Shown here in pieces: positions 3,267-21,487 of a DNA stretch of 23,581 bases (its first letter is position 1; each line of letters opens with the position of its first letter). The notes beneath the pieces are model-generated. The model saw only the letters and a list, made by a program, of their open reading frames with translations, did no database searches and was not told the DNA's origin. The position numbers and the translations under genes were made by a program. Source of the stretch: a virus; the IMG/VR virus record IMGVR_UViG_3300009474_000015, positions 1 through 23,581 of that record; one strand, given 5' to 3'.

Positions 3267-3803
3267 TCAGACTCCGATGTTCAGGCCAGCGCCTGAGGAC
3301 TGTCCCGACGAACCCACTCGCAAACTTTCTGCTCCTGTCCCACCGCCACGGCGCCGCTTCTGATCGTCGCCTGCCACGTTTGCTCCGGTAATGGGCGCAG
3401 TAGGCCCGCTACCAGCAGGCCTTTGATTCAGCACCCGCATTGAGGTTGAAGCCGCACCAGTGGCCAGGCGTTGCGCGGCCAGCGCCCTTGCCTGCTCTGC
3501 CTGCTGCTGAGCAATTTGCGCCCGCTGCGCCTGCTGTTGCTGGTAGAGCTGCTCGGCTTGGGCCTTGGCTTGCGCCTGCATCTGCTGCTGCTGCTGGGCC
3601 GCTCTCTGTTGAGCTAGTTGCTGCTGCTGCGCTTGTTGCGCCTGCAAAGCCTTGACCTGCGCTTCGGCTGCACGTTGAGCCTCGGCAACCCTGGCTTGCT
3701 CGGCAGCTAGCTGCTGGCTTATTCGATCTGCCTCGGCTTGGCGTGCTGCTGCATCTGCGTCTGCTTGCTTCTGAGCGTTGTTGTTGCCGCCTCCTTTGCA
3801 CAT
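3267..3803 (-). CDS. Small virion/ejection-type protein, gp6.7/gp7.3-like copy 3
   Basis: 178 residues starting MCKGGG. Residues about 10-115 are an almost uninterrupted Gln/Ala coiled-coil-like helix with poly-Gln runs. The tail is basic (KRRRGGG) and ends SSGQSSGAGLNIGV. The MC start and the ending resemble, from memory, two T7 proteins ejected with the DNA: gp6.7 (starts MCF, contains GRKGLKVERDD) and gp7.3 (ends SSGGGINI). The position between exonuclease and portal is also that of T7 6.7/7.3. It follows the next copy after a 2-nt gap, and its last codons share near-identical DNA with that copy (3267-3292 versus 3806-3831), which argues for gene duplication. The role as a virion or ejected protein is inference. 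Confidence 0.72.
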   Translation of the reverse strand: MCKGGGNNNAQKQADADAAARQAEADRISQQLAAEQARVAEAQRAAEAQVKALQAQQAQQQQLAQQRAAQQQQQMQAQAKAQAEQLYQQQQAQRAQIAQQQAEQARALAAQRLATGAASTSMRVLNQRPAGSGPTAPITGANVAGDDQKRRRGGGTGAESLRVGSSGQSSGAGLNIGV

Positions 3804-3805
3804 GG

Positions 3806-4294
3806 TCAGACTCCGATGTTGAGGCCGGAGCCGGCCATGGCGGACACCGAACCCTGCGCAATTTTTAAGCTGCTGGACTGCTCTTTCTTTTTCGGTGTCA
3901 CCGGCTCAGTTGTTTGCGCGTTGGCAGGGGTTATCTGAGCTGTATTGACCCCGTAGGACGACTGGGCTATGGCTGCGTTCTCGCTGGCAGCGGCAGCAGA
4001 TTGAGCCGCCATGTCCAGCTGAGCTTTCTGCTTCTCCATGGACATGGCCTCCTGGGCTTTTTGCGCCTCAGTTTTTATGCCGCTCTCGAAGGCGGCACGC
4101 TCCTTCGCCAGGGCCGCGGCCTGCTTCTGCGCAGACTGGTTGGCTTGATCGATCTGTGCTTGCAGCGCCGCTGCAAACGTCTGCTGCTGGGCAGCTGATT
4201 GCTGCATGTAGGCCTGCATCTGCGCGTTTTGCGCCGCGATGTCCTGCTGGCTGGGCCCGCTGTAAATGATCTGAGGGGCTGCAGTACGGCACAT
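3806..4294 (-). CDS. Small virion/ejection-type protein, gp6.7/gp7.3-like copy 2
   Basis: 162 residues starting MCRTAAPQII. Residues about 15-115 form an Ala/Gln-rich predicted coiled coil. A basic PKKKEQ patch is followed by SLKIAQGSVSAMAGSGLNIGV, which keeps the pattern K-x-x-S-L-K-I ... G-S-G-L-N-I seen in the neighbouring copies and, from memory, at the end of T7 gp7.3 (KKSLSVARSSGGGINI). It starts 2 nt after the stop of the upstream copy and ends 2 nt before the next one, so the three are one translational block. A tail-associated or ejected role is inferred from T7 gene order and not shown by the sequence. Confidence 0.72.
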   Translation of the reverse strand: MCRTAAPQIIYSGPSQQDIAAQNAQMQAYMQQSAAQQQTFAAALQAQIDQANQSAQKQAAALAKERAAFESGIKTEAQKAQEAMSMEKQKAQLDMAAQSAAAASENAAIAQSSYGVNTAQITPANAQTTEPVTPKKKEQSSSLKIAQGSVSAMAGSGLNIGV

Positions 4295-4296
4295 GG

Positions 4297-4701
4297 CTAG
4301 CTTGCGGTGGTGATGTTGAGACCCGTTCCAGCGCCTTCGCTGGTGGCAGTGGCCCGGTCAACGCGATCAATCCGCAGGCCCTTTTTGCCTTTGGCCTTGA
4401 CCATGTTTTCGCGGTCGGTGCCAACCACTGGCGCCTTGGCGGTCTTCTCTGGCGGCGGGGTGCCGATCAGCGCCGCCATCCGCTGGGCATTGGCGGCAGT
4501 GTCGTTGGCCCGCTCGGTCTTGAAATCCCGCGCTGCCATAAGCCCCTGCTCCTGGTTGCGCAGCGCCTGGTTCAACTCCATCTGCTTAAGCGCCGCCACG
4601 CCCTGCTGCTGCTGCTGCATGGCATTCATCTGCATCTGGGCCATCCGGTCGTAGGCCCCGGTGTCCGGCATGGTGATGGTTGCAGCCTTGCCTCCACACA
4701 T
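4297..4701 (-). CDS. Small virion/ejection-type protein, gp6.7/gp7.3-like copy 1
   Basis: 134 residues starting MCGGKAATITMPDTGAYDRM, with a Met/Gln-rich helix at about 20-60. The C-terminal part reads KGKKGLRIDRVDRA, then GAGTGLNITTAS. GKKGLRIDRVD lines up with the GRKGLKVERDD segment recalled for T7 gp6.7, while GTGLNI matches the gp7.3-type end, so this copy links the two families. The ATG overlaps the upstream stop by one base (TGATG at 4701), indicating coupled translation. It is the first and least repetitive of the three tandem copies. Function as an ejected or tail-assembly protein is inferred from T7. Confidence 0.74.
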   Translation of the reverse strand: MCGGKAATITMPDTGAYDRMAQMQMNAMQQQQQGVAALKQMELNQALRNQEQGLMAARDFKTERANDTAANAQRMAALIGTPPPEKTAKAPVVGTDRENMVKAKGKKGLRIDRVDRATATSEGAGTGLNITTAS

Positions 4702-19671: not shown

Positions 19672-20787
19672 ATGATCCAGCAAGTCCAGTTCAGTGACGA
19701 GCGCTGGCTCCAGTTCTGGGACAACTACAAGGGCCTGGAGCACCAGAAGAAAAGCATCATCAAGCTCGGTCAGCACATCAAGCAGGCTGACCCGTTGTTG
19801 CTTGCCGAGAACGCCGACTGGGTGAGCGATTGGCGCGGTGCTGGCGACATTGAGAACAGCTGGGCTGGAATTGAAGCAGCAGCCCGAAAGTACCGCTGCC
19901 GCTACCCAGAACTTGTTGCTGCCCAGTGGCGGCTGGAAAGCGGTTCTGGCAAGCACATGAGCGGCCGCAATAACCCCTTTGGATTGAAAGGCCCGGGCAC
20001 CGTCAAGGAGACCCAGGAGGTTGTGGACGGCCAGACAATCACGATCATGGCCTCGTTCCTTGACTTTGCCTCGCTCGACGCAGCGGTGAAGTACCTGGTG
20101 GAACGCTGGTACCTGGACTGGAAAACCCACAAAGGCGTCAACCATGCGGCGAACCGCAATGAGGCTGCCAAGGAACTGCAGCGCCAGGGCTACGCCACCT
20201 TGCCGGCCTACAGCGAGCGGCTGATCAATCTCATGGACCAGCAGCGGCCCCTCAAGCTGCCGGTGCTCCTGCGCAACCCGCTGACTGTGAAGTGGCAGAG
20301 CCAGCTCGATAACAAGAGCGGTACCGGCTACCGCGAGTGCTTCTCCAGCTCCTGCGCAATGCTCGCCATGTACTGGGGCAAGGTCGCCAATGACGATGCC
20401 TACAACCTGATCCGCGCCAAATACGGCGACACCACATCAGCAGAAGCGCAGCTGGCTGCATTGCGGTCCCTGGGGCTCAAGGCCAACTTCCACACCAGTG
20501 GCACCCCAGGGGCCCTGGAGCGGGAGATAGACGCTGGCAGGCCCGTGGCTGTTGGCTGGCTCCACAAGGGCCCTGTAGGGGCTCCTAGCGGTGGCGGCCA
20601 TTGGTCGGTGGTGATCGGCTACACCGCCGTGGCCTGGATCCACAACGACCCCAATGGCGAGGCCCTGCTGGTCCAGGGCGGTTACAGCAGCAACACCAAG
20701 GGTGCTGGGTTGATTTACAGCCGCAAAAACTGGAATCCCAGGTGGATGCCGGGTGGCTCCGGCGGCTGGTGTCTCACTTGCGGTTGA
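19672..20787 (+). CDS. Two-domain endolysin: glucosaminidase plus C39-type peptidase
   Basis: 371 residues. Residues about 60-190 form a mannosyl-glycoprotein endo-beta-N-acetylglucosaminidase (FlgJ/LYZ2-like) domain: YPELVAAQWRLESGSGKHMS with catalytic Glu about 89, NNPFGLKG, and FLDFASLDAAVKYLVERWY. Residues about 205-371 form a papain-like C39-type peptidase: TGYRECFSSSCAMLAMYWG with nucleophile Cys about 223 (or 228), a GGHWSVVIGY with His about 310, and HNDPNGE with Asp about 326. One enzyme would cut glycan strands and the other the peptide or crosslinks. No signal peptide, so it needs a holin. It is on the plus strand between minus-strand genes and overlaps the frameshift product's end by 14 nt. 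Confidence 0.85.
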   Translation: MIQQVQFSDERWLQFWDNYKGLEHQKKSIIKLGQHIKQADPLLLAENADWVSDWRGAGDIENSWAGIEAAARKYRCRYPELVAAQWRLESGSGKHMSGRNNPFGLKGPGTVKETQEVVDGQTITIMASFLDFASLDAAVKYLVERWYLDWKTHKGVNHAANRNEAAKELQRQGYATLPAYSERLINLMDQQRPLKLPVLLRNPLTVKWQSQLDNKSGTGYRECFSSSCAMLAMYWGKVANDDAYNLIRAKYGDTTSAEAQLAALRSLGLKANFHTSGTPGALEREIDAGRPVAVGWLHKGPVGAPSGGGHWSVVIGYTAVAWIHNDPNGEALLVQGGYSSNTKGAGLIYSRKNWNPRWMPGGSGGWCLTCG

Positions 20788-21037
20788 GATCACTCCACGG
20801 AGACTTGATCTCCATGGGCCCACCCAGCAACCTGCGCTCGCCGGTTTGCCGTGCGTCATCAATCGGGTGCTCGATGATCACTGGATCAGGAGCCTTTGGC
20901 TGAGCAGCATGAAAGGCGTCCACCTGCTTGTCGATGGACGCAATGGTTCTGGCCTCGGCAATGAGCTGCTTGGCTTCTGCGTCACGGGGCCTGGTGCTGA
21001 ACAGAGTCAGCGTGGCCGGGCCGATGTTCGGCCTCAG
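20774..21037 (-). CDS. Frame 2 of lysis-region cassette, probably made by -1 frameshift
   Basis: About 87 codons reading LRPNIGPATLTLFSTRPRDA then EAKQLIAEARTIASIDKQVD..., a hydrophilic helical segment ending SPWSDLNRK. No ATG, GTG or TTG precedes this stretch after the upstream stop; the first codon after overlap would be CTG, giving a CTGA overlap with the membrane gene stop. The alternative is that ribosomes shift -1 at GGGAAAG (21040-21046) and join the 46-aa membrane protein to this tail, yielding a membrane-anchored protein of about 133 residues. A longer upstream in-frame start (21148) would run wholly inside the membrane gene. No function recognised; position suggests lysis control. 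Confidence 0.6.
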   Translation of the reverse strand: MRPNIGPATLTLFSTRPRDAEAKQLIAEARTIASIDKQVDAFHAAQPKAPDPVIIEHPIDDARQTGERRLLGGPMEIKSPWSDLNRK

Positions 21038-21046
21038 CCCTTTCCC
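21019..21046 (-). promoter_or_regulatory. -1 ribosomal frameshift signal
   Basis: Reading the membrane-protein frame, the minus strand has ...CCG GGA AAG GGC TGA GGCCGA ACA TCGGCC. It is a slippery heptamer G-GGA-AAG in the correct phase (21040-21046), a 6-nt spacer containing the zero-frame stop, and a perfect 6-bp GC-rich hairpin with a 3-nt loop (21019-21033). GGGAAAG is the heptamer used by phage lambda gpG/gpGT. All parts are read directly from the sequence; function is not shown. Confidence 0.65.
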
Positions 21047-21174
21047 GGCTTGATGGCGTAGAGCGCTTGCAGGATCAGCTGCACGACCGAATTGCTTTTT
21101 AGCGAGGACAGCCCGACTAACTCGGACACTGCCGCCAGCACGATCCAAAACGCTGGATGCGATAAGAACTCCAT
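21034..21174 (-). CDS. 46-aa membrane protein, frame 1 of frameshift cassette
   Basis: MEFLSHPAFWIVLAAVSELV then GLSSLKSNSVVQLILQALYA and IKPGKG. One hydrophobic helix at about 8-22 and a second amphipathic helix at about 30-41. It is too short for most gene callers. I recall similar short proteins in cyanophages near lysis genes, but no function is established. The start ATG 21174 is preceded by CACCTGCAAC, related to the CACCTG core of the TGCA motif. Its last codons form the slippery site, so two products are expected: this short form and a longer fused form. Holin- or spanin-like roles are possibilities only. Confidence 0.72.
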   Translation of the reverse strand: MEFLSHPAFWIVLAAVSELVGLSSLKSNSVVQLILQALYAIKPGKG

Positions 21175-21214: not shown

Positions 21215-21487
21215 TCAACTATCCATGCCTGCTGTATCCCCGCCGACCTTGCCTGCTTCTAGACGGTTGATCCGGTGGTCGTGGCGGTGAAGGGTCGTAT
21301 TGACGCTCTCAAATGCGCTCTCGAAGCGCTGCAGGGTCTTGTCGATGTGTTTGACCGACGCTGACAGCTCGATTAGCGCGACGGTGGCTGCATCGTCACG
21401 GCGGCGGATGTTAGCGATCCAGTTGCTGGTGCCACCAAAGAGCACCCCTGCAAGCGCGGCCAGGATCGCGGTGTACGGCTCAGCCAC
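21215..21487 (-). CDS. Membrane-anchored coiled-coil protein, spanin/holin-accessory-like
   Basis: 90 residues. Residues about 7-26 (AILAALAGVLFGGTSNWIAN) make one membrane helix, followed by a basic IRRR stop and a long heptad-like helix (VALIELSASVKHIDKTLQRF to RLEAG, about 35-78). N-terminal anchor plus coiled coil resembles i-spanins (T7 gp18.5) or XhlA-like holin partners. GTG start at 21487 directly after a TGCACCTATGCA motif. Located between tail genes and the membrane cassette, near the endolysin; a lysis role is likely but unproven. Confidence 0.68.
   Translation of the reverse strand: MAEPYTAILAALAGVLFGGTSNWIANIRRRDDAATVALIELSASVKHIDKTLQRFESAFESVNTTLHRHDHRINRLEAGKVGGDTAGMDS

Follow-up and report, generated by a model that had tools for sequence, protein, structure and literature searches.

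How the second of two overlapping reading frames is translated was the question raised by a locus on the minus strand of a viral DNA fragment, IMG/VR record IMGVR_UViG_3300009474_000015, analyzed here over its whole length of 23,581 nucleotides (nt; hereafter, the window). The first open reading frame (ORF) encodes a 46-amino acid (aa), holin-like membrane protein (21174 (ATG)..21034 (TGA)). Its final codons, CCG GGA AAG GGC TGA, contain the heptamer G_GGA_AAG (21046..21040) in the -1 phase of slippery sites (X_XXY_YYZ), one codon before the TGA stop (21036..21034). GGGAAAG is the slippery heptamer of lambda gpG/gpGT. A -1 shift after AAG reads GGG CTG AGG and so on, giving 88 codons from GGG at 21040 to a stop at 20774; the C-terminal end of this tail (21040..20774, minus strand) is ...RRLLGGPMEIKSPWSDLNRK. 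A preliminary description of the locus had proposed such a frameshift, and its coordinates for the membrane ORF and the in-phase heptamer are confirmed. It had also stated that the second frame has no usual start codon past the junction, which holds, though the ORF listing of the window contains a TTG for this frame at 21148, inside the membrane gene. Comparison of related sequences leads us to conclude that conserved -1 ribosomal frameshifting is very probably at work and is the clear best explanation. The predicted product, of 133 aa, would join membrane protein residues 1-45 (...KPGK) to GLRPNIG... (21174..20774, minus strand).

Homologues were gathered by tblastn searches of GenBank phages with the membrane protein and the tail, and by scanning IMG/VR with membrane and tail alignments, yielding 253 loci with 173 distinct membrane ORFs. 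In Synechococcus phage S-EIVl and other GenBank phages, tblastn matches to the two proteins lie side by side; in S-EIVl they share one base, an exact -1 junction, and the heptamer is identical to that of the window. The arrangement recurs, with the heptamer A_AAA_AAG, in S-CBS3, KBS-S-2A, S-CBS1, S-B28, WH11-B, and 7B11-B. The joined gene is annotated in none of the GenBank records viewed: these lack the membrane gene or the tail, or have the tail begin at an internal start, as in S-EIVl, S-CBS1, and S-CBS3. Wherever a tail match was found beside a membrane ORF, the tail was in the -1 frame (234 of 234 loci, a redundant set), and no single ORF matched both the membrane model and the tail model; thus, none of the collected loci showed an in-frame fusion. 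The genome scan also found the membrane gene in contigs of metagenome-assembled genomes from several bacterial groups other than cyanobacteria (five loci, L261-L265); these are probably cyanophage contigs binned by mistake, i.e., viral contamination.

The heptamer is significant because it is conserved across relatives, not because of its single instance in the window. We assembled the distinct loci in which an in-phase heptamer is combined with a -1 frame 30 codons or more in length (157 loci; 94 representatives after thinning). The heptamer is A_AAA_AAG in 137 of them, G_GGA_AAG in 12, C_CCA_AAG in five, and A_AAA_AAC in three, and in all 157 it ends 3 or 0 nt before the stop. Thus, the first triplet varies (A, G, or C), and the phase and the distance to the stop are constant. 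When synonymous codons were drawn from local usage, a heptamer was expected in only 29 of the 157 loci, or 18 of the 94 representatives. Within the last seven codons, the in-phase heptamer occurs in 157 loci, compared with nine and five for the other two phases. Since possession of the heptamer was a criterion for entering this set, a fairer test is offered by the loci that the tail alone had retrieved; there the heptamer was present in 51 of 52 distinct junctions (75 of 77 loci). Neither a tail nor a heptamer is found in the relatives L006, L123, L130, L131, and L147 (these five with ...CCA AAG AAA CAG/AAG...), in L046, L047, and L052, or in L014-L016. In L046, L047, and L052, an endolysin-like ORF begins at an ATG overlapping the TGA stop.

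The prevalence of A_AAA_AAG, an A run, in 137 of 157 loci would also be expected if RNA polymerase slipped at the run, leaving part of the mRNA in the other frame. The run is usually just six A residues followed by G, however, and G_GGA_AAG (as in the window) and C_CCA_AAG serve equally in relatives; short runs and heptamers that are not A runs therefore make transcriptional slippage highly improbable.

A second alternative is termination-reinitiation, in which ribosomes restart at a codon overlapping the stop, such as the CTG in CTGA, and make the tail as a separate protein. The preliminary description had allowed for this rare start. A 4-nt overlap likewise gives a -1 relation between the frames, and CTG does overlap the stop in 93 of 157 loci. 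In 57 of the 157, however, CTA, TTA, or GTA occupies the overlap, and these loci keep the heptamer; a conserved Leu at the junction accounts for the CTG, CTA, TTA, and TTG codons, and reinitiation does not account for a heptamer that stays in phase while its first triplet changes. As a general mechanism, a restart at CTG was rejected, since loci with TAG and TAA stops have no usable codon at this position. One locus does resemble the reinitiation arrangement: phage S-CBS2 (L004, 2866-3180) has kept the gene pair, lacks the heptamer, and has a GTG overlapping its TAG stop. S-CBS2 probably restarts at this GTG instead of frameshifting, an apparent switch between the two modes. For the family as a whole, we regard reinitiation as very unlikely.

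If ribosomes enter the tail by frameshifting, its first codons should be read as protein with or without a start codon nearby. Across whole tails, the median ratio of nonsynonymous to synonymous substitution rates (dN/dS) is 0.13 (49 independent pairs of relatives). In loci with no ATG, GTG, or TTG in codons 1-11 past the stop, dN/dS over these codons is 0.14 in the -1 frame, whereas frames 0 and +1 give 1.4 and 1.8, respectively (43 pairs). Hence, even where these starts are lacking, purifying selection acts on the -1 frame in the codons right past the stop. Low dN/dS confined to the -1 frame where starts are absent indicates that translation most likely enters this frame at or before the stop. 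These data bear on a third alternative, namely that the tail has a gene of its own, whose start lies downstream or within the membrane gene, at the TTG at 21148 or at internal starts such as those in the deposited annotations of S-EIVl, S-CBS1, and S-CBS3. Although most tails have some ATG, GTG, or TTG in their first half, 46 of 154 have none there and five have none at all; moreover, protein-level conservation in the -1 frame extends to codons that precede any start. In about 40 of the 157 loci, the -1 frame can be followed from the junction only 3-7 codons upstream before it closes. In S-EIVl a stop four codons upstream closes it, and because of such closures in relatives the TTG start at 21148 is not conserved. 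An independent tail gene is thus, in our judgment, scarcely credible.

The hairpin is a different matter. The perfect 6-bp (base pair) stem-loop GGCCGA-ACA-TCGGCC that had been described 6 nt past the heptamer is present (21033..21019, minus strand). A stem of 6 bp or more without a mismatch would arise by chance in this slot with a probability of about 1.2% in the window, and the 37 nt from the heptamer have a folding z of -3.6. The hairpin is kept in loci L021 and L017 (in L017 with both sides of the outer pair changed), shortened and partly kept in L020, and absent in S-EIVl, L018, and L025. An Rfam search gave nothing meaningful. The hairpin is possibly a local stimulator in close relatives, not a general one. 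Thus, of the features the preliminary description had wished to see aligned in homologous loci, the heptamer and the lack of a start are conserved, and the hairpin is kept only among close relatives.

Several observations weigh against frameshifting as the general explanation. The loci are related to each other, so that the counts given above are not independent. Across loci we found no general downstream structure and no obvious upstream Shine-Dalgarno-like stimulator; mean folding z downstream of the slip site was -0.97, compared with -0.53 in a control stretch (94 representatives). Three loci (L063, L030, and L168) have the heptamer but no recognizable tail. Finally, there are two tail-bearing types without the heptamer: S-CBS2, discussed above, and L051/L222, which has A_AAG_AAG where others have A_AAA_AAG and is a natural variant. 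Nevertheless, the heptamer and the absence of a normal start for the second frame recur in 157 distinct loci from several phage groups, and the frameshift originally proposed is supported. The sequence comparisons give strong support to the assignment of the frames, to the slip site and its position, and to -1 frame translation of the tail beginning with the codons right past the stop. We infer that the slippage is ribosomal and that both products accumulate.

Phage tail chaperones are a familiar case of -1 frameshifting with two products, one short and one extended (PMC3483164, PMC3556154, PMC12846349); these frameshifts are attributed to Xu, Hendrix and Duda, 2004, as cited in PMC3483164 and PMC3556154. 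As at the present locus, they use heptamers of the X_XXY_YYZ type, such as GGGAAAG (in lambda), GGGAAAC, and AAAAAAC. Tail chaperones are, however, soluble proteins encoded between the major tail and tape measure genes, whereas here the short product is a 46-aa membrane protein near an endolysin, and its gene family occurs in phage groups that include T7-like podoviruses. A tail assembly chaperone of the gpG/gpGT kind was therefore rejected for this locus, whose product is a membrane protein and whose place is the wrong one, next to an endolysin and in a window that has a T7-like connector. In the phiEco32-like phage Privateer, a capsid frameshift takes place at GGGAAAG, and both protein bands are seen (PMC7881722). 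A -1 shift likewise gives a minor, C-terminally extended form in T7 gene 10A/10B and in the phiEco32-like capsid, but these capsid proteins are unrelated to the proteins described here.

What might the two products do? In an AlphaFold model of moderate confidence (mean predicted local distance difference test (pLDDT) score 75), the membrane protein consists of a helix (residues 7-22), a loop, and a second helix (29-41). Residues 7-22 have a hydropathy of 1.84, and the C terminus is basic. The protein matches phrog_22542 (E = 1.8e-19) and phrog_15106 (E = 3.5e-6), both PHROGs without assigned function. It had no match in Pfam, a close relative had no meaningful match in NCBIfam, and no named holin family was matched; for this reason we call it holin-like and do not file it as a holin. 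The tail, modeled alone, has a single long helix (17-45) together with a small, compact region at its C terminus (mean pLDDT 78; predicted template modeling score 0.39), and tails end in a conserved LLGG-x-M-x-I-x-APW motif. The tail of the window has no significant PHROG or Pfam match, and a structure search with its model gave no credible match in the PDB. Against a viral structure library, the model gave two matches at 54-55% identity, which, judged by length, are probably the S-EIVl and S-CBS3 tail ORFs, and one S-PM2 protein (Foldseek E = 0.028). The S-B28 tail matches phrog_6464, cyanomyovirus T4-GC 410 proteins, by hidden Markov model (E = 6.6e-4), but hhalign comparison of the profiles gave a probability of 1%. 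The link to these proteins is only a lead. In the cyanomyoviruses P-HM1, P-RSM1, and P-SSM4 (L254, L255, and L256), T4-GC 410 proteins are stand-alone and soluble, and their GDEGWSI motif resembles the end of the S-B28 tail.

In the window, the membrane gene lies beside an endolysin with glucosaminidase and C39 peptidase-like parts (19672..20787, plus strand; phrog_10051, E = 5e-122), which is convergent to the tail ORF and overlaps it by 14 bp at its 3' end. In 73 of the 94 representative loci, an ORF from the cluster that contains the endolysin is located nearby, mostly just downstream and on the same strand; of seven ORFs of this cluster that were checked, five had domains of the lysozyme, glucosaminidase, or peptidase type, in architectures that differ. 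Relatives that lack the tail adjoin lysozyme genes in S-CBS4, S-SRP01, and DSL-LC07; in S-CBP42 and S-CBP2, they immediately precede the small terminase gene, the slot of the holin in T7 gene order. The T7 holin gp17.5 is encoded between the fiber and small terminase genes, and some relatives of the membrane gene lie likewise. ORF70 of cyanophage MaMV-DC is a holin-like protein, and the quoted holin length is 49-210 aa (PMC12843271). At 46 aa, the membrane protein is just under this range; with holins including T7 gp17.5 and MaMV-DC ORF70 it shares small size, at least one transmembrane helix, a charged C terminus, and a gene near the endolysin.

Its gene family is, however, without annotated function, and the endolysin is on the opposite strand in the window. 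The lysis role is unproven and rests on gene position and size, which also weighs against this part of the explanation. A frameshift that is real but unconnected with lysis, the protein pair being for instance a membrane anchor for another tail-binding partner or a superinfection-exclusion protein, is a serious contender, although we hold it to be somewhat less than an even prospect. The weak resemblance of the tail to stand-alone cyanomyovirus proteins (phrog_6464 and the S-PM2 model), which have no assigned function and no lysis neighbors, would fit such a role (tempered by the hhalign result), as would those relatives that have no endolysin-cluster neighbor. Against it, most loci adjoin an endolysin, of differing architecture, or, among tail-less relatives, occupy the T7 holin position. 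Endolysin-adjacent position and holin-like anatomy thus tip the balance slightly toward a lysis role for the protein pair. The control of lysis timing suggested in the preliminary description is only inferred from these same two properties.

In the lysis explanation, ribosomes would translate the membrane protein as far as G_GGA_AAG, one codon short of the stop, where some would slip back one base and read 88 further codons. The result would be a minor 133-aa protein with the shared membrane segment and a cytoplasmic tail. The short form would be a holin-like membrane protein of the lysis cassette; the long form may modulate it, being antiholin-like or an anchor for a partner, and the slip rate would set their ratio. 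As a whole, this account of a short membrane protein and a minor tailed form whose ratio is fixed by the slip rate in a lysis cassette appears likely. Lambda S105/S107 is a holin/antiholin pair made from one gene by dual starts. Likewise, it consists of two forms of one membrane protein at a set ratio (putative in the present case), but S105 and S107 differ at the N terminus through alternative starts, whereas the difference here is a C-terminal extension by frameshifting. In the literature searched, which leaves out most subscription papers, we found no -1 frameshift extension in any holin and no frameshift in a holin-like gene or cyanophage lysis cassette, in line with the earlier statement that no such cassette was known beside a podovirus endolysin.

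Other parts of the window were also inspected. Upstream of the membrane gene, a 90-aa protein (21215..21487, minus strand; weak phrog_26178 match) has a short hydrophobic N terminus and a coiled-coil-like C terminus and is a possible lysis accessory candidate. A phage integrase (11973-12962, minus strand; phrog_1, E = 4.7e-48) is found in the same contig as a T7-like RNA polymerase and connector, so the source virus is possibly a temperate podovirus. At 3267-4701 (minus strand), three adjacent glutamine-rich ORFs (178, 162, and 134 aa) all start with MC and end in GLNIGV, GLNIGV, and GLNITTAS, respectively; they look like tandem relatives and have no PHROG match at E 0.01. A search of the window for tRNA genes found none.

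These results add a conserved frameshift gene family to the phages that infect picocyanobacteria, a group of major primary producers. Because annotations in the genomes viewed omit the tail or the membrane gene or give the tail an internal start, databases lack the long protein. Tentatively, and at somewhat less than even odds, a widespread family of cyanophage lysis cassettes may set its holin:antiholin ratio by -1 frameshifting, with lysis timing coded in the slippery site. If the lysis role is true, these phages would have a translational means of fixing the ratio of two forms of a lysis protein.
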